In this document: piece by piece, positions 3,319 through 48,403 of the stretch
Position numbering within the stretch: the first letter of the stretch is position 1
Layout: each line of letters opens with the position of its first letter
NCBI RefSeq assembly: GCF_000724625.1
Contig: NZ_CP007139.1
Coordinates: 4,464,001 to 4,528,000 of the forward strand
Direction: 5' to 3'
From: Fimbriimonas ginsengisoli Gsoil 348
GTDB lineage: Bacteria > Armatimonadota > Fimbriimonadia > Fimbriimonadales > Fimbriimonadaceae
Length of the DNA stretch: 64,000 bases
Notes under the pieces: model-generated
Database searches by the model: none
Told to the model about the DNA's origin: nothing
Seen by the model: the letters and a program-made list of their open reading frames with translations, nothing else
Made by a program: the position numbers and the translations under genes

Positions 3319-4827
3319 ATGCAACCTCCTGAGCTTCCACCGACCATCGTCGCGATCTTCGGCGCAACCGGAGATCTGACCAAGCGCAAGCTGTTGCCGG
3401 CGCTCTACAACCTGTGGCTGGATGGGCAGATGCCCAAGCAGTTCTCCATCCTCGGCGTCTCCCGGCAAGGCAGCACCGAGCAGTTCTGCGAGGGGATGAA
3501 GCAGGCGATGGCCGAATTCTCTCGCCGAGGGGCGCCCGACGAAACGAAGTGGCGAGAGTTCGCCAAGCACATCGAGTTCCTAAAGGGAACGTTCGACGAT
3601 CCGCGCACCTTCGAGAAGCTGAAGCACCGGATCGAAAAGGACGAGGCGGAATACGGGCAACGCGCGTCGCGCGTTTACTATCTCTCTGTCCCTCCCGGAA
3701 TCTTCGGAATGATCGCCGACGGTCTCGGTCACGCCGGCCTCTCGCAAGATAGGACCCACGACCGGATCGTTATCGAGAAGCCGTTCGGCCGTGACCTCGA
3801 GTCGGCCGAGGCGCTGAACGCGCAAATCCTCCGGAACTTCGAGGAGCGGCAGATCTACCGGATCGACCATTACCTGGGCAAGGAAACCGTTCAAAACATC
3901 CTCGCCTTCCGGTTTGCGAATGCGCTTTACGAACCGATCTGGAATCGGCGTTACGTGGACCACGTGCAGATCACCGTGGCGGAGGATGTCGGCGTCGGCA
4001 CCCGCGGCAACTACTACGAAACCTCCGGCGCCCTCCGCGACATGGTGCAGAACCATCTGCTCCAGCTCATGTGCCTCGTGGGAATGGAGCCGCTCGCCTC
4101 GTTCGATGCCGACGAGGTTCGAAACAAGAAGGTCGACGTACTCCGCGCCGTGCGCCCGCTGGCGAAGCAAGATCCCCACGACTATGCCGTGCGAGGCCAG
4201 TATGGCCCCGGCAATATGCAGAATGAGAGCGTCCTCGGCTACCGCCAAGAGGTCGGCGTCGATCCGTTTTCGGCGACGGAGACCTACGTCGCGCTCAAGC
4301 TGTACCTGGATAACTGGCGCTGGCAAAACGTGCCGTTCTACCTGCGAACCGGCAAGCGGCTACCCCGCAAGCTTTCGCAGATCGTGCTGCAGTTCCGCCC
4401 GGTGCCGCACCAGATGTTCCCTCCCGAGTCGTCCGAGGTTTTTGAGCCGAACCGGTTGATTATCAACATCCAACCTGAGGAAGGGATCATCATGCGGTTC
4501 CAGGCAAAGGAGCCGGGAGCCGGGATGCGCCTGCGAACGGTCTCGATGGAGTTCGACTACGCCGAAGCGTTCCATGCGACGAACCGCGAGGCGTACGAAA
4601 CCCTTTTGCAGGAAGTGATCGAAGGGGACCAAGCCCTGTTCATGCGCGACGACCAAGAGCGAGTCGCCTGGAAGCTGATCGAGCCGCTCCTCGACCACTG
4701 GCAAGTCTCCCCCGCCAGCCACTTCCCTAACTACGTAGCCGGCACCTGGGGCCCCGAAAGCGCCGACATGATGCTCGCCCGCGACGGCCGAAGCTGGTAC
4801 AACCCCATGGCCGGAGTCAAGCTCTAA
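3319..4827 (+). CDS. zwf: Glucose-6-phosphate 1-dehydrogenase
   Basis: This 502-residue enzyme is of normal family length. The N-terminal [20 protein letters not shown] is the NADP-binding G-x-x-G-D-L-x-x-R/K-K motif. [13 protein letters not shown] near residue 182 carries the catalytic histidine region, and IEKPFGRDL is also intact. It oxidises glucose 6-phosphate to 6-phosphogluconolactone, the first step of the oxidative pentose phosphate branch. It begins 3 nt after gnd. The gene is followed immediately by a 64-bp dispersed hairpin (4833-4896) which separates it from pgl and may set differential expression. Confidence 0.97.
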
Positions 4828-4832
4828 CCTCT

Positions 4833-4896
4833 TCCGGAGCCCCCTCCTCGTCGATGTCTGTGCGATGAGGAGGGGGTTGGAGGTGGAGAAATCCGG
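4833..4896 (+). repeat. Dispersed CT-rich hairpin repeat, copy 1 (zwf-pgl gap)
   Basis: A CCCCCTCCTCGTCG arm pairs with CGATGAGGAGGGGG around a 9-nt loop, followed by a conserved tail ending in GGAGAAATCCGG. The same 64-bp unit recurs on the minus strand at 33448-33510 with only a few differences, and a relative is at 23128-23182. There is no T-run, so it is not a classical intrinsic terminator. Confidence 0.8.
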
Positions 4897-4903
4897 AAAA
4901 GGC

Positions 4904-5623
4904 ATGCCAATGATCCACCTTTTCTCCAACGCTGAAGCGCTCGCCCAAGCCGCCGCGACTGAATTTGCCCGTGCCTCCTCCGCCTCCATCTCGGCCCGCG
5001 GCCGTTTCACGGTCGCCCTTAGCGGAGGCAGCACGCCCAAGCGCCTTCACGCCCTCCTCGCCTCCCCACCGCTTCGCGACCAAGTCGCGTGGGACCGGGT
5101 GCACCTCCTTTTCGGCGACGAGAGATACGTGCCGCCAAGCGACGAGCAGAGCAATGAGCGAATGGCGCGCGAAACGCTTGTCTCCCGCGTCCCGATCCCA
5201 GAGGCGAACGTCCACGGCATGTACGCCCCCGGTGGACCCGACGCGGCTGCCTCCGCCTACGAAGACCTCGTCAGGTCACTCCTGGGAGACGAGCTCGCCA
5301 TCGACCTAACCCTCTTGGGCCTCGGCCCCGACGGTCACACCGCTTCCCTATTCCCTGGGCGTCCATCCGTCCACGAGACCGACCGTCTGGTCATCGCCGC
5401 CAAAGCCAACGCCGGAGTGGAGGACCGAATCACCATGACCGTTCCCCTCCTCAATCGATCGCGAGAGATCCTCTTCCTCGCCGCCGGCGCGGATAAGGCC
5501 GACGCGGTGCGCCGAGCCCTCGATGCCCCCGAGAACTGGGACGAAACCCCTTCGCAAGCGGTGGCCCGCCACGCCCCCAACGTCGTGTGGTTCTTGGACG
5601 AAGCCGCCAACGCCGCCCGTTAA
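4904..5623 (+). CDS. pgl: 6-phosphogluconolactonase
   Basis: This 239-residue NagB/RpiA-type lactonase (SOL/DevB family) hydrolyses 6-phosphogluconolactone between the Zwf and Gnd steps. Family motifs are V-A-L-S-G-G-S-T-P-K near residue 40, the V-H-L-L-F-G-D-E-R-Y-V-P stretch, and L-L-G-L-G-P-D-G-H-T-A-S-L-F-P-G. I chose the ATG at 4904 (next in-frame ATG 4910). The longer reading from 4865 would be encoded by the hairpin repeat and adds residues not expected for the family. It completes the oxidative pentose phosphate cassette rpiB-pgi-gnd-zwf-pgl. Confidence 0.92.
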   Translation: MPMIHLFSNAEALAQAAATEFARASSASISARGRFTVALSGGSTPKRLHALLASPPLRDQVAWDRVHLLFGDERYVPPSDEQSNERMARETLVSRVPIPEANVHGMYAPGGPDAAASAYEDLVRSLLGDELAIDLTLLGLGPDGHTASLFPGRPSVHETDRLVIAAKANAGVEDRITMTVPLLNRSREILFLAAGADKADAVRRALDAPENWDETPSQAVARHAPNVVWFLDEAANAAR

Positions 5624-19810: not shown

Positions 19811-22800
19811 ATGACAGTGTCGCTTTTGGCTCTGGCCGCGATCTCCGCCCACTTCCCCGTCCGTGCCCAAGCGGATACATGCTTGGCCTTCGTGTCGAGC
19901 AACCTCGCCCATGGGCGGGAGAACTTCTTCACCTACTACAAGTTCTCCGACCAGCGGATCGCCATCAAGGAAGGGGACGTGCTCGTCTATTCCGTCTTCC
20001 TCGATCCGAAGAACCCGGTGGCGAAGGGAGGGTTGGACGTCGATTTCGCGGACGATAAGGACTCATTGCGCGACATCCATCTAAAGGATACGCAAGGGCT
20101 CGATTGCCACGGCGACACCGTTCTCACCCCCGCCATCGGCAAATGGTACGTGCGCCGCATCCCTCTCGTGGGGCAAGCCGGACGAACGACGGTGGCATGG
20201 AACGCAAACTTCGAAGGGGACGAGTTTGGCCCCTACGTTCAATGGCTGGATGACATCTACGTGGAGCACGCGGATGGCACCCGCACCCCCGTGTACACCA
20301 ATGGCCTGCCGCCAACCCGTCAGTTGGTTAACAGCAATGGGTATTCGAAGCTTCCGATCTTCATCTCCGTAGACCGAAGCAAAGTGGTCGAAGGCGCCAA
20401 TACCGCGGCGCTCGTCGCCCAAGTGGAGGCGGCCGGCAAGCGAATCGCCAGCCTGGAGAATGCGCGGAGGGACATCGAATTTGCCCGCGGATTCCTGAAA
20501 GGAAATCCGGATCCCGCGCTAGAGGGCCACATCCGGGAAGCGGCAGCGCTGCTCGATGCCGTCGAGCGGAAGGAGAATGCTTCGCCCGAAGAGATTCAGG
20601 CCGCGCTTCACGCCGCGAACCATGCGCTCTCCCACACGCACCCGGTGATGGAGAAGTACACGGGACACCTCGTCGGGCACGCCCACATCGACCTGCAGTG
20701 GCTATGGGAGTGGCAAGAGGGGCTGGTCGTCACCCACGACACGTTCAACCAGGCCGCCAAGTTCATGGACGAGTTCCCCGGCTTCACCTTTAGCCAAAGC
20801 TCGTCCTGGCTGTACAAGGCGGTCGAGGAGCAGTACCCCGCCCTGTTCAAAACCATCCAGCAGAAGGTGAAGAAAGGACAGTGGGAGCTGGTCGGCGGTC
20901 GCGTTTGCGAGGGGGACACGAACATGATCTCCCCTGAGTCGCACGCCCGCCAATTCCTCTACGGCCAGCGCTACTTCCGAGAGAAGTTCGGCAAGACGGC
21001 CCGGGTGGCGTGGGAGCCGGACACCTTCGGTCATAACGCCCAAATGCCGCAGATCGCCAAGCTCGGCGGATGCGATGCGTACTACTTCTGCCGGGGCGGC
21101 AAGGAGAAGCCGCTGTTTTGGTGGACCGCCCTCGACGGCACCAAAATTCTAACCTTCGACGAGCCGGCCACCGGTTCTTGGTACAACAGCGATCTCTCCT
21201 ACAAGCAGTTCCAGGAGATGCTCGATTTCCGCGACAAGACCGGCAGCAAGGACATGCTGTGGGTCTATGGAGTTGGCAACCACGGCGGCGGCCCCACCCG
21301 CGAGATGATTCAGGAAGCGCTCGGCTGGATGAAAGACCCGACCAAACCGAAGGTCCGCTTCTCTACCGCCACCGAGTTCTTCGACAAGCTGCGCACCTAC
21401 GATCTGAAGAAGATTCCGACGATCCAAGACGAGCTCAACCCGGTCTTCGACGGCTGCTACACCACCCACTCCGAAATCAAGCAGCTCAACCGGCAAGCGG
21501 AGGCGATGACCACCGCCGCTGAGGCGATCGCGACCGTCGCTTCCCTTCGCGGCTTCGCCTATCCCAAGGCGTCGTTCCGCCGCAACTGGGAGGAGATCTG
21601 CTTCAACCACCACCACGACACTCTCCCTGGCTCGGGAATCCACGCCCCGTACGAGAAGACCAAAGTCCAGCTCCAGAGGGTGGTCTTCGACGACCGCGAC
21701 ATTATCCAGCGCGCCATGGAGTCGATGGCGGTCCAAGTCACCGCCCCCAAAGGGATCAGTCAGATGGTCTTCAATCCCACCGGCTGGACCCGAAGCGGAT
21801 GGGTGGAGACCTACCTCGTGAAGAGCGGGTGGGACGCCGACAGTGGGGTAACCCCGGAGAACGCGGTTGCCGTCGCCCCGGACGGCGCCAAGTTCCCGGT
21901 CCAGCTCATCGACGGCCCGAGCCGCAAGATCCGGTTCTGGGCCGGCAACGTGCCGGCGTTCGGTTACAAAGTGTTCAATTTCCAGATCGGGACGGTGCCA
22001 AAGCCAAAGGTGCGAATGACGGGTGAAGGCTCGTTCGAAACCGATGCCTATCAGGTGACTTTCGATGTGAAGCGCGGGCTGATCACGAGTCTTTTCGACA
22101 AGCGCTTAAAGCGGGAAATGGCGGGCTCGTCGCTGGGCCGCTTGGAGAACCACTTCGAAGGACCCGGCGGCATGAGCGCTTGGGTGATCGGCGCGATCTC
22201 GAAGGTCGAGCCGTTGGAGTGCGTCGACCATGCGGTGACCGGCACACCGGAGCATGTCGAGGTGCGTTTCGACTATGTTCTTAAGGCGCACAACTCGCTG
22301 AGCCGGGACACCAAGGTGACCCAACGGTTCGTTCTGGATACGCGAAAACCGACGATCGAAACCGACGTCGATTGCGACTGGAACGCGATCGGCACCGGCG
22401 ACGAGCCGTCGCCGATGCTCCGCGTGGCGTTCGACACCGCGACGACGGCAACATCGGCGCGGTATGAGATTCCGTTCGGCTCCATCGATCGGAAGTCCGA
22501 CGGCCGCGAGTTCCCCGCTCTCCAATGGGCCGACCAAAGCGGCATTGCCGTCCTCAACGACAGCAAGCACGGCTACTCGTCCGACGGAAAGACCTTGCGT
22601 CTCACACTCATCCGCGCGTCGCATGACCCAGACCCGGTACCCAACCCCGGCCACCACCACTGGCGCTACTCAATCGTCCCGCACGGCTCCGAGATGAACT
22701 ACGCGCAGTTGACTGAGATCGCCACCGAGTTTAATATCCCGCTCTTTAACGCCTCGGTCCCTTACGATGCTCGCGGCGACCAGCCGCTAGAATACAGGAC

Positions 22801-23122
22801 GATCACGATGGGGACGGACCCGGTCGTCCCCACCGCGCTAAAGCGATCTGAGGATGGTAATGACTTAATTCTCAGATTCTTCCAGGCTTCGGGCCAACCG
22901 AGTGCGCGGTATTCGGCAAGAATCTTTCCCTTCTTTAAGCGCGCATCTTGGGTGAACTTCGTTGAAGATCCCCTAAGTATCGCCGGCCAAAGCGATGTCG
23001 GCACCGGCTCCGCCGGCCCTGATGGCGGCCGCCTTATCTACGACCTTCGCCCCTTTGAGATCCGGACGGTCAAGATTCAGCTTCAACCTAAGGGATATTC
23101 GCCAAAACCGCCAATGGAATAA
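19811..23122 (+). CDS. Secreted GH38 alpha-mannosidase
   Basis: This is a 1103-residue protein. Residues 1-21 are a signal peptide. An N-terminal carbohydrate-binding-like beta domain follows (about 22-170). The GH38 catalytic domain carries the zinc motif H-A-H-I-D at 290-294, the nucleophile in W-E-P-D-T-F-G-H (Asp404), a second metal region H-H-H-D-T-L-P-G-S-G at 600-609, and C-terminal beta domains to the end. It removes alpha-linked mannose outside the cytoplasm, probably from plant or microbial glycans. TAAAAT (19796-19801) 9 nt before the ATG suggests a leaderless mRNA. A dispersed hairpin follows the stop. No sugar transporter is adjacent. Confidence 0.92.
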   Translation: MTVSLLALAAISAHFPVRAQADTCLAFVSSNLAHGRENFFTYYKFSDQRIAIKEGDVLVYSVFLDPKNPVAKGGLDVDFADDKDSLRDIHLKDTQGLDCHGDTVLTPAIGKWYVRRIPLVGQAGRTTVAWNANFEGDEFGPYVQWLDDIYVEHADGTRTPVYTNGLPPTRQLVNSNGYSKLPIFISVDRSKVVEGANTAALVAQVEAAGKRIASLENARRDIEFARGFLKGNPDPALEGHIREAAALLDAVERKENASPEEIQAALHAANHALSHTHPVMEKYTGHLVGHAHIDLQWLWEWQEGLVVTHDTFNQAAKFMDEFPGFTFSQSSSWLYKAVEEQYPALFKTIQQKVKKGQWELVGGRVCEGDTNMISPESHARQFLYGQRYFREKFGKTARVAWEPDTFGHNAQMPQIAKLGGCDAYYFCRGGKEKPLFWWTALDGTKILTFDEPATGSWYNSDLSYKQFQEMLDFRDKTGSKDMLWVYGVGNHGGGPTREMIQEALGWMKDPTKPKVRFSTATEFFDKLRTYDLKKIPTIQDELNPVFDGCYTTHSEIKQLNRQAEAMTTAAEAIATVASLRGFAYPKASFRRNWEEICFNHHHDTLPGSGIHAPYEKTKVQLQRVVFDDRDIIQRAMESMAVQVTAPKGISQMVFNPTGWTRSGWVETYLVKSGWDADSGVTPENAVAVAPDGAKFPVQLIDGPSRKIRFWAGNVPAFGYKVFNFQIGTVPKPKVRMTGEGSFETDAYQVTFDVKRGLITSLFDKRLKREMAGSSLGRLENHFEGPGGMSAWVIGAISKVEPLECVDHAVTGTPEHVEVRFDYVLKAHNSLSRDTKVTQRFVLDTRKPTIETDVDCDWNAIGTGDEPSPMLRVAFDTATTATSARYEIPFGSIDRKSDGREFPALQWADQSGIAVLNDSKHGYSSDGKTLRLTLIRASHDPDPVPNPGHHHWRYSIVPHGSEMNYAQLTEIATEFNIPLFNASVPYDARGDQPLEYRTITMGTDPVVPTALKRSEDGNDLILRFFQASGQPSARYSARIFPFFKRASWVNFVEDPLSIAGQSDVGTGSAGPDGGRLIYDLRPFEIRTVKIQLQPKGYSPKPPME

Positions 23123-23127
23123 CCACT

Positions 23128-23182
23128 CCGGAGCCCCCTCTCCCTCCTTCGGATGTTTCGTGCCGAACGAGGGAGAGGGGGG
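23128..23182 (+). repeat. Dispersed CT-rich hairpin repeat, divergent copy 3
   Basis: The arm CCCCCTCTCCCTCCTTCGG (23134-23152) pairs with its near-complement at 23163-23181 (one mismatch) around a loop starting ATGT, as in copy 1. The same CCGGAG lead-in precedes the stem. It lies just after the alpha-mannosidase stop and may also act as a terminator. Confidence 0.65.
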
Positions 23183-30035: not shown

Positions 30036-30482
30036 TTAATCCCACAGATACCGCTCATCCCAGGCGCGGCCGTGTTCTTTCAACAGGCTTCTGAGCTCGT
30101 CTTGAAACGAATACCGGCGGTGGTGTTCTTCTTGATTCTCCACATACCGGCGGACCGCTTCGATCTCGGCGGTTCCAACCGAGAAGACGCCGTAGCCGCT
30201 TTGCCAATGAAAGCCGGGGATCTTCTCACCTAGCCAAAGGCTGGAGACCCGCTTGAGTTCCTTCGCCCAGTCCGCCTGGGATCTGGATCTGCCGAGCTGG
30301 GCGAGAATGTGGACATGGTCCTCGACCCCTCCGACGATCATCGAGGGGCAGTCCAGTCGTCCCGACACGGCTCCGATATAGGCGTGGGCTTCCTCGCGAA
30401 GGGACTTTTCTTTGAGGAAGGGTCGCCTATCTTTTGTCGAAAAGACCAGGTGTACGAAGACCGCTGAAAGGGACTGAGGCAT
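30036..30482 (-). CDS. REP-associated tyrosine transposase (RAYT, IS200-like)
   Basis: This is a 148-residue Y1 HUH transposase. The HVH metal pair is at residues 56-58 (G-V-E-D-H-V-H-I-L-A), W-Q-S-G-Y-G-V-F-S-V is at 93-102, and the catalytic Tyr is in R-R-Y-V-E-N-Q-E-E-H-H (Tyr113). RAYTs are single-copy domesticated transposases that mobilise or maintain REP palindromes. Here four REP copies surround the gene, two per side in mirror orientation. That is the canonical REPtron arrangement. Its 3' end directly abuts the left REP pair. Confidence 0.92.
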   Translation of the reverse strand: MPQSLSAVFVHLVFSTKDRRPFLKEKSLREEAHAYIGAVSGRLDCPSMIVGGVEDHVHILAQLGRSRSQADWAKELKRVSSLWLGEKIPGFHWQSGYGVFSVGTAEIEAVRRYVENQEEHHRRYSFQDELRSLLKEHGRAWDERYLWD

Positions 30483-33405: not shown

Positions 33406-33447
33406 GGATCGAAGTCTATCGCGAGACGGTGATGTCTTGCCTCTTTT

Positions 33448-33510
33448 CCGGATTTCTCCACCCCCAACCCCCTCCTCATCGCACATACATCGACGAGGAG
33501 GGGGCCTGGA
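33448..33510 (-). repeat. Dispersed CT-rich hairpin repeat, copy 2
   Basis: Read on the minus strand it is almost identical to 4833-4896: the same stem, a loop differing at one position, and the same tail through GGAGAAATCCGG. It lies between the E2 gene and the CE7 esterase, 3 nt from the E2 stop codon. Confidence 0.8.
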
Positions 33511-33513
33511 GGA

Positions 33514-34821
33514 CTACTTGAAGAAGTCGAATCCGTGGAGTTTGTCGCGGATGGCGGCGAGGAACTTGCCGGCCAGCATTCCGTCGACCAAGCGGTGGTC
33601 GTAGGTCAGCACCAGGTGCATGATCGATCGGATGGCGATCATGTCGTCGACGATCACCGGCTCTTTGGAGATCGAATATGTGCCGAGGATGCCGGCCTGC
33701 GGCGCGTTGATCATCGGTGTTCCGAACAGTGCGCCGTACGTGCCGGGGTTGGTCAAAGTGAACGTTCCCCCCTGCACGTCGGCTACGCCGAGCTTGTTCG
33801 CGCGCGCCTTCTGGGCGATCGCGTCGAGATCGCGGGCGATGTCGATTAGATTCTTCTTGTGGCAGTCGCGGATCACCGGGACGATCAGGCCACCCTCTCC
33901 ACCCTTGCCGAGCGCGACCGCGACGCCGATGTGAACCCCCTTGTTCATCACGATCATGTTGTCCTCGCGCAGGCTTGAGTTCACTAGCGGGAACTCCGTC
34001 AGCGCCTCGGCAAGCGCCTTGATGAAGAACGGGGTGTAGGTGAGCTTGACTCCGTAAGTTTCGAGGAACGAGTCCTTGTTGATCTCCCGGAACTTGACCA
34101 TGCTGGTCACATCCACCTGGGTTACCGTCGAAACAGTCGGCACCTGAGAGGAGCGGATCATCGCGTCCGCGATCATCTTCCGCATTCCCGCCAGCGGCAC
34201 GAGCTCCTGCTCCGGTCCCGCCACCGTCGGCTGCGGCGCGGCCTTAGGTTGCGGAACCGTGGCGGCGGGTACTGCCACTTTCGTCGGCGTGGCTTCGATG
34301 ATCTGCGAAGCGACCTTACGGCCACTCGCCAAATACGCCTCGACGTCGCGCTTGGCGACCCGGCCGCCTTCGCCCGTACCGGTTAGCCCTTGGATCTCCT
34401 CTTCGGAAATCCCGTGCTCCTTCATCATCGCCCGCACCACCGGCGTGTACCACTTTCGATCACCTTCTGAGCTTGCCGCCGCTGGTGCGGGGACAGTCGC
34501 CGGAGTTGCGGGCGCCGCGGTCGGCGCCGCCGGAACTGGAGCCGCCTCGGCAGCAGGAGCGGAAGCGGGCGTCGCCGCACCGGCACTGTCGTCGATGAGC
34601 CCCATCGCCGCGAATACCTCGACGGCTCCCCCTTCCTGAACGAGGATCTTGGCCAAAATTCCGGTTGCCGGGGCGACCAGCTCGGTGTTGACCTTGTCGG
34701 TCATGATCTCGACGACCGGTTCGTCCTCCTTGACGAAGTCTCCCTCTTTCTTCAGCCAACGGCTGACGGTTCCCTCGTGGACGGACTCTCCAAGCTCCGG
34801 CATCTTGATCTCGACAGGCAT
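33514..34821 (-). CDS. 2-oxoacid dehydrogenase E2 component (dihydrolipoamide acyltransferase)
   Basis: This is a 435-residue protein. The lipoyl domain spans residues 1-76 with the lipoylated Lys in I-M-T-D-K-V-N. An Ala/Pro-rich linker runs over about 80-115. The peripheral subunit-binding domain is at 125-165 (V-V-R-A-M-M-K-E-H-G-I). The catalytic acyltransferase domain extends to the end, with H-R-L-V-D-G-M-L-A-G-K-F-L. It transfers acyl groups to CoA in a pyruvate, 2-oxoglutarate or branched-chain complex; the substrate cannot be fixed because E1 and E3 are not in the window. TAAACT (34833-34828) 6 nt before the ATG suggests its own leaderless transcript inside the end of the upstream gene. 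Confidence 0.93.
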   Translation of the reverse strand: MPVEIKMPELGESVHEGTVSRWLKKEGDFVKEDEPVVEIMTDKVNTELVAPATGILAKILVQEGGAVEVFAAMGLIDDSAGAATPASAPAAEAAPVPAAPTAAPATPATVPAPAAASSEGDRKWYTPVVRAMMKEHGISEEEIQGLTGTGEGGRVAKRDVEAYLASGRKVASQIIEATPTKVAVPAATVPQPKAAPQPTVAGPEQELVPLAGMRKMIADAMIRSSQVPTVSTVTQVDVTSMVKFREINKDSFLETYGVKLTYTPFFIKALAEALTEFPLVNSSLREDNMIVMNKGVHIGVAVALGKGGEGGLIVPVIRDCHKKNLIDIARDLDAIAQKARANKLGVADVQGGTFTLTNPGTYGALFGTPMINAPQAGILGTYSISKEPVIVDDMIAIRSIMHLVLTYDHRLVDGMLAGKFLAAIRDKLHGFDFFK

Positions 34822-47959: not shown

Positions 47960-48403
47960 ATGGCTTCTACATATCTGAGCCTATATGTCCACGTCGTCTT
48001 CGCTACAAGAGAGCGGGCACCGACGATTCGCAAAGAGTGGATGAACGACCTCCATGCCTATACCGGCGGCACTGCACGGGCACTCGGAGTAACTCCCCTC
48101 GAAATAGGCGGTGTGGCAGATCACGTCCATCTCCTCCTCGGACTGAAAGCGACCCATACTGTGTCGGACGTCGTCCGCGAGATAAAGCGGGCCTCATCCG
48201 TCTGGGTCTCGCGAGAGAAGAATCGAGGATTTTCTTGGCAGGCCGGATACGGCGCATTTTCCGTCAGCCGTTGGGAACTGGACGCGTTGCGAACTTATAT
48301 CGCCGGGCAAGAGGAACATCACCACGCCGTTTCGTCCGCCGATGAATTACGAGCGTTGCTCCTCGAACATGGGGTGGAGTATGAGGAGAAATATTTCGAA
48401 TGA
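47960..48403 (+). CDS. REP-associated tyrosine transposase (RAYT), second type
   Basis: This is a 147-residue Y1 HUH enzyme with HVH at residues 55-57 (V-A-D-H-V-H-L-L-L), W-Q-A-G-Y-G-A-F-S-V at 93-102 and the catalytic Tyr113 in R-T-Y-I-A-G-Q-E-E-H-H. I use the ATG at 47960; a longer reading from 47921 would translate the REP palindrome. It is a homologue of the 30 kb RAYT but clearly diverged, and it is flanked by a different REP sequence, which fits one RAYT per REP family. Confidence 0.92.
   Translation: MASTYLSLYVHVVFATRERAPTIRKEWMNDLHAYTGGTARALGVTPLEIGGVADHVHLLLGLKATHTVSDVVREIKRASSVWVSREKNRGFSWQAGYGAFSVSRWELDALRTYIAGQEEHHHAVSSADELRALLLEHGVEYEEKYFE

Follow-up and report, generated by a model that had tools for sequence, protein, structure and literature searches.

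Bacterial genomes commonly contain short palindromic repeats, and the question raised by this locus is what one of them, a 64-bp hairpin lying between a zwf-like and a pgl-like gene, represents: a terminator, a relative of the described REP elements, or a part of something that moves. Our reading, which we consider probable, is that it is the end or solo form of a mobile element carrying a DUF559 nuclease gene. The window, that is, the whole stretch of 64,000 nucleotides that was analyzed, holds the following features that bear on the question.

4833 to 4897, plus strand: family-1 hairpin element, with TCCGGA at 4833-4838, a 15-bp stem (4839-4853 paired with 4863-4877), a 9-nt loop, a G-rich tail or bulge, and TCCGGA at 4892-4897
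33447 to 33510, minus strand: second window copy of the family-1 hairpin element, from similarity search and fold
23127 to 23181, plus strand: family-2 hairpin element without tail, a sister family and cognate of the DUF559 gene at G000:C1:2240922
3319 to 4827, plus strand: zwf-like gene (glucose-6-phosphate 1-dehydrogenase), named from sequence; the element starts 6 nt past its stop
4910 to 5623, plus strand: pgl-like gene (6-phosphogluconolactonase), named from sequence; adjoins zwf in relatives
33514 to 34821, minus strand: 2-oxoacid dehydrogenase E2-like gene; the second family-1 copy starts 4 nt past its stop
19811 to 23122, plus strand: alpha-mannosidase-like gene, named from sequence; the family-2 copy starts 5 nt past its stop

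The first-pass annotation had proposed a dispersed 64-bp family from two near-identical hairpins conserved into their non-paired tails, together with a genome search for more of them. The two (4833-4897 on the plus strand, 33447-33510 on the minus strand) are indeed 97% identical over 63 aligned nt, and a similarity search and a tail-pattern search of the Fimbriimonadaceae genome (5,231,762 bases, 5.23 Mb, one contig), once merged, revealed about 51 distinct copies of the family-1 repeat, far more than were noted at first, with the reversed tail pattern giving 2 matches genome-wide as a control. Because the tail, GGGGGTTGGGGGTGGAGAA(A/T)TCC, and the TCCGGA end are kept in nearly all copies, the family reduces neither to the window copies nor to stems with unconserved tails, and its consensus reads TCCGGAGCCCCCTCCTCGTCGATGTNTGTGCGATGAGGAGGGGGTTGGGGGTGGAGAA(A/T)TCCGGA. 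Folded as single-stranded DNA, the copy at 4833-4897 is predicted to form the 15-bp stem and 9-nt loop, closed further by TCCGGA-TCCGGA pairing, such that its G-rich tail becomes a bulge (z -6.0), and the three window hairpins all fold far better than their shuffles (z -6.0, -4.8 and -4.6). The hairpin at 23128, described earlier as a relative with a longer stem, is real but is not a version of family 1; it is a tail-less copy of family 2, which has at least 40 strong copies in the genome. Searches against Rfam gave no match within the window. Three family-1 copies (L063, L068 and L070) have a long loop holding about 30 nt of mutually unrelated sequence, and short palindromes (GGACCGCCGCTCTCCAGAGCGGCC, and GTGGCACTGGC...GCCAGTG) adjoin family-1 copies on their right, mostly past TCCGGA (L008, L014, L017, L025, L027 and L030).

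Comparison of the zwf-pgl junction among relatives, the named ones fetched being Fimbriimonadaceae and Armatimonadetes assemblies, revealed a hairpin-free gap of 0-20 nt in seven same-genus genomes (G001, G002, G009, G011, G013, G015 and G016), and because both genes abut there without the hairpin, the copy between zwf and pgl is, on this comparative evidence, an insertion. G014 carries an unrelated insertion at this position, and in G019 no zwf end was recognized beside pgl. The 3' arm of the inserted hairpin carries an ATG in frame with pgl (window 4865-5623; MRRGLEVEKSGKGMP-MIHLF...), so that gene-finding programs may place the start of pgl inside the element; the start MRRGLGVE, as read from this ATG, also precedes the DUF559 gene in L074.

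Closeness to a stop codon, which the first-pass annotation ascribed to all of its copies, holds for most, the stem starting 7-13 nt after the stop in 25 of the 29 copies with a same-strand upstream gene, while the remaining copies lie in other contexts. Family-1 placement is non-random, with target choice and selection both possible as its cause. This spacing and the strength of the hairpins would suit selected 3'-UTR or regulatory elements (terminators or mRNA stabilizers), with DUF559 genes merely nearby or insulated by them, but we hold this to be highly improbable: no T-run follows the stem, hairpins stand on both sides of DUF559, inverted in G000 and in the Alphaproteobacteria, and the family-specific matching, empty sites and moved unit described below require insertion. 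A plain intrinsic terminator was rejected for the same want of a T-run, with TTGGGGGTGGAGAA following the stem in the copies, and a later terminator function would be compatible with mobility. The earlier judgment that the family is mobile or selected rather than a chance terminator holds, given the roughly 51 copies with their conserved tail, the orthologous sites that lack the hairpin, and the matching nuclease gene that these same hairpins enclose.

That gene belongs to a small set. The genome has three DUF559 genes above the Pfam cut-off plus one weak fourth match, and each of the three clear ones sits between two copies of its own hairpin family, these being family 1, family 2 (that of the 23127 copy) and a third, CCCTCTCCCTTCGTTG...CAACGAAGGGAGAGGGCTGGGGTGAGGG. 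At L074/L126, two family-1 copies about 460 nt apart, inverted and with TCCGGA outermost, enclose the DUF559 gene; in the relatives G002 and G009 it is a direct-repeat pair that encloses it. DUF559 is the sole gene recognized in the unit, which holds no recognizable transposase or recombinase such as the parent of an insertion sequence would have. Among 85 genomes of the family, 47 have both DUF559 and the hairpin-plus-tail pattern and 20 have neither (odds ratio 11.6, p 2e-6, a statistic that ignores phylogeny). The 9 genomes with the pattern and no detected DUF559, and the 9 showing the reverse, count against the DUF559 reading; loss, divergent hairpins or gaps in the assemblies may account for them.

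Evidence on movement of the whole unit comes from G072, where two DUF559 units on different contigs share 96.7% identity over 549 nt, with identity beginning and ending at the outer hairpins and the flanks differing, that is, at non-homologous sites. One of these copies has EVHG in place of EVDG and may therefore be inactive. A Sphingomonadaceae intergenic site beside a carboxylase gene pair (named from sequence) has nothing inserted in about 12 loci that were read, where mostly a few nt separate the genes, whereas others hold a hairpin-DUF559-hairpin unit of roughly 440-560 nt, and a profile search found DUF559 in six newly fetched loci of this site. Here the DUF559 genes of L187 and L210 lie at the same locus in opposite orientation relative to their neighbors, which suggests inversion or repeated insertion. 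An array at L166 carries an internally deleted DUF559 copy, and gene-less inverted pairs and solo hairpins were also found; internal deletion of this sort is a route by which non-autonomous elements arise. No convincing target-site duplication was seen, which counts against the element reading, and none at the G072 unit sites, and TCCGGA stands at both family-1 ends, yet the two ends do not vary together. Taken from sequence comparison, the view that the hairpins are insertions and that the gene-bearing unit moved with the hairpins as its borders is well supported.

Such movement might also be that of a free-standing homing endonuclease cassette, which would cut a specific intergenic target and be copied in with its borders by recombinational repair, leaving the hairpins as passive flanks or repair aids and the solo hairpins as decayed cassettes. 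The sphingomonad site, repeatedly occupied and also by a GIY-YIG gene, fits this explanation, as does the match of the DUF559 profile to the mobile-intron endonuclease 3r3p. Site-specific homing would not be expected to leave solo hairpins by the dozen at unrelated positions of a single genome, the G072 unit at two non-homologous sites, or matched hairpin families, and we regard it as unlikely.

The pairing of DUF559 with hairpins was assessed over 110 DUF559 loci drawn from six phyla or more, among them Alphaproteobacteria, Planctomycetes, Verrucomicrobia, Chloroflexi, Nitrospirae and Acidobacteria. Pyrimidine-rich hairpins with a stem of at least 8 occur there at 2.62 per kb within 250 bp of the gene against 0.134 per kb beyond 500 bp (19.5-fold), where loci of other phyla were picked by motif match, the loci that yielded the near and far densities are short, and the controls are simple. 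The excess is similar upstream and downstream, with such hairpins upstream in 55, downstream in 56 and on both sides in 40 of the 110 loci. When only loci outside Fimbriimonadaceae were compared with the flanks of other ORFs, the difference persisted both upstream (40/74 vs 15/91, p 4e-7) and downstream (39/74 vs 14/109, p 7e-9). With the stem threshold at 7 or more, 81 loci have at least one pyrimidine-rich hairpin within 250 bp, and the 29 that have none count against the DUF559 reading. The upstream and downstream hairpins of one DUF559 gene match each other, with a mean score of 25.9 against 11.4 and a permutation maximum of 13.9.

In Alphaproteobacteria the tail is itself a second hairpin, giving the layout CCTCCCC-hp1-GGGGAGGGGGACC-hp2-GGTGGAGG, and this element has 1-36 copies in 10 of 12 genomes, all of which had been selected for a DUF559 locus; the control gave a single match. 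Inverted pairs are spaced roughly 25-60 nt apart, or about 380 nt with DUF559 inside. Pairing is kept in both hairpins despite sequence change (0.89 vs 0.34 when shuffled, and 0.85 vs 0.42, over 8 and 11 stem types), a pattern which shows the stems to be maintained by compensatory change.

Evaluating the protein further, we found that the DUF559 profile matches 3hrl, an endonuclease-like protein (E 1e-32), and, as noted above, 3r3p, a solved mobile-intron endonuclease (E 0.0016), which relates it to a homing family. The alignment keeps E25, D53, E64, D66 and D77 in every sequence and H70 in almost all, residues that we take to recall the EDxHD motif of the 3r3p homing enzyme. The two systems have in common a related nuclease domain and a gene travelling between genomes, whereas the gene studied here is not intronic, is framed by hairpins, and shares its genome with many derivatives that lack the gene. 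A role in a defense system was rejected, as PADLOC returned weak partial matches only. The same domain is found in Caulobacter VsrA (CCNA_02930), a DUF559 protein reported to cause the SOS response in cytosine-methyltransferase mutants and proposed to be a mismatch-repair enzyme tied to cytosine methylation, in a study that makes no link to repeats (PMC12907096). This competing role counts against DUF559 as a mobilizer, although the one need not preclude the other.

Among described repeats, the closest parallels are the GTAG REPs and REPINs with their RAYT (TnpA-REP) partners, which share short, dispersed, intergenic palindromes and a cognate gene that is low in copy number and flanked by repeats of its own family. 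They differ in that the enzyme here is a Vsr-like DUF559 nuclease and not a Y1 HUH transposase, and in that the element has a pyrimidine-rich stem and a G-rich tail (GGTGRRG) and no GTAG tag. Membership of the GTAG REPs was rejected, with a consensus that has TCCGGA and the G-rich tail and no unpaired GTAG. Another enzyme of the Y1/RAYT kind might still move the hairpins, DUF559 being a passenger or inserting preferentially beside them; the genome does have 13 Y1_Tnp matches, and hairpins could serve DUF559 units as landing sites. That not one of the 13 genes has an element within 1.5 kb, and that hairpin sequence follows the DUF559 gene, each with its own family, makes this very unlikely in our estimation, and a Y1/RAYT partner was rejected on the former count. 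The initial statement that the family is unrelated to REP elements therefore stands with respect to GTAG/RAYT REPs. Two Y1 (RAYT-like) transposase genes lie in the window, at 30132-30464 (minus strand) and 47975-48310 (plus strand), within long inverted repeats with arms at 29921-29991/30545-30615 and 47867-47913/48444-48490.

MITEs and their parent insertion sequences offer a second parallel, sharing an autonomous unit with inverted ends, alongside derivatives that are internally deleted or solo. Terminal repeats in inverted orientation, common to an autonomous element and its derivatives, are present here, since inverted hairpins frame DUF559 in G000 and in the Alphaproteobacteria and gene-less inverted pairs occur. 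As differences, there is no transposase, no target-site duplication was recognized, and the ends are themselves hairpins.

Returning to the preferred reading, a mobile element with DUF559 as its nuclease, we favor it because of the dispersed copies, empty sites, framed genes, cross-phylum enrichment and matched flanking hairpins, and further because of the moved G072 unit, the sphingomonad site, the covarying stems, the co-occurrence, the endonuclease matches, and the deleted and solo forms. The autonomous form would consist of a small DUF559 gene with a hairpin at either end and measure about 450-560 bp, and the solo hairpins would be non-autonomous derivatives mobilized in trans. DUF559, as the putative mobilizer, would most likely recognize the hairpin and its G-rich tail, as a folded single strand or a cruciform, and would cut at the hairpin/tail, at the target, or at both, after which repair or replication may place a copy of the element in another intergenic region, often directly past a stop codon. 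Movement could be copy-out or homing-like, and each DUF559 gene would serve its own hairpin family, as RAYT does with GTAG REPs, although the enzymes are unrelated. Each of these mechanistic steps carries less confidence than the reading of an element with a nuclease.

Whether all such loci form one phylum-spanning class of transposable elements without a classical transposase, having hairpin ends of about 45-65 bp, DUF559 as sole gene and many solo derivatives, is to our mind an evenly balanced question. Provisionally, we describe the hairpin-DUF559 element as what looks like a widespread and undescribed kind of mobile element; no title or abstract linking DUF559 or GIY-YIG genes to repeats was found in the open-access literature that was searched. 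If DUF559 is the partner of pyrimidine-rich hairpins, a domain of unknown function would gain a role, a nuclease directed to hairpins is predicted, and proteins at present interpreted as mismatch-repair enzymes acting alone, among them the experimentally tractable one in Caulobacter, could be seen in a new light.

A further class of repeats, the CGTC REPs, is defined by an unpaired CGTC (TGTC/CCTC), an 8-9-bp stem with A/T first pairs and a CCA tail, and was reported without a dedicated transposase, only GTAG REPs having an associated enzyme and the absence being left open (Di Nocera et al. 2013, PMC3733652). Like the element here, CGTC REPs are intergenic palindromes that are dispersed, carry a tail and have had no dedicated enzyme reported for them, but the element has a longer, 15-bp C-rich stem and no CCA tail, and CGTC REPs adjoin GIY-YIG genes instead. 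Membership was rejected, with CGTC solely inside the stem and a tail of GGGGGTGGAG. Among 73 DUF559 loci, 1 perfect CGTC REP was found near the gene. In 30 Sphingomonadaceae GIY-YIG loci, the near flanks, about 16.5 kb in total, hold 15 perfect CGTC REPs, at 9 loci, against 1 in about 60 kb farther away. This association bears directly on the claimed lack of a dedicated transposase (PMC3733652), and if it and the DUF559 reading are true, non-HUH homing-type nucleases would drive much of the short-palindrome content of bacteria. At the loci L337-L355, GIY-YIG genes are framed by or lie beside CGTC-tagged REPs, and in three species (L308, L309 and L325) a small GIY-YIG gene, recognized from its sequence, sits between CGTC REPs at the same sphingomonad site.
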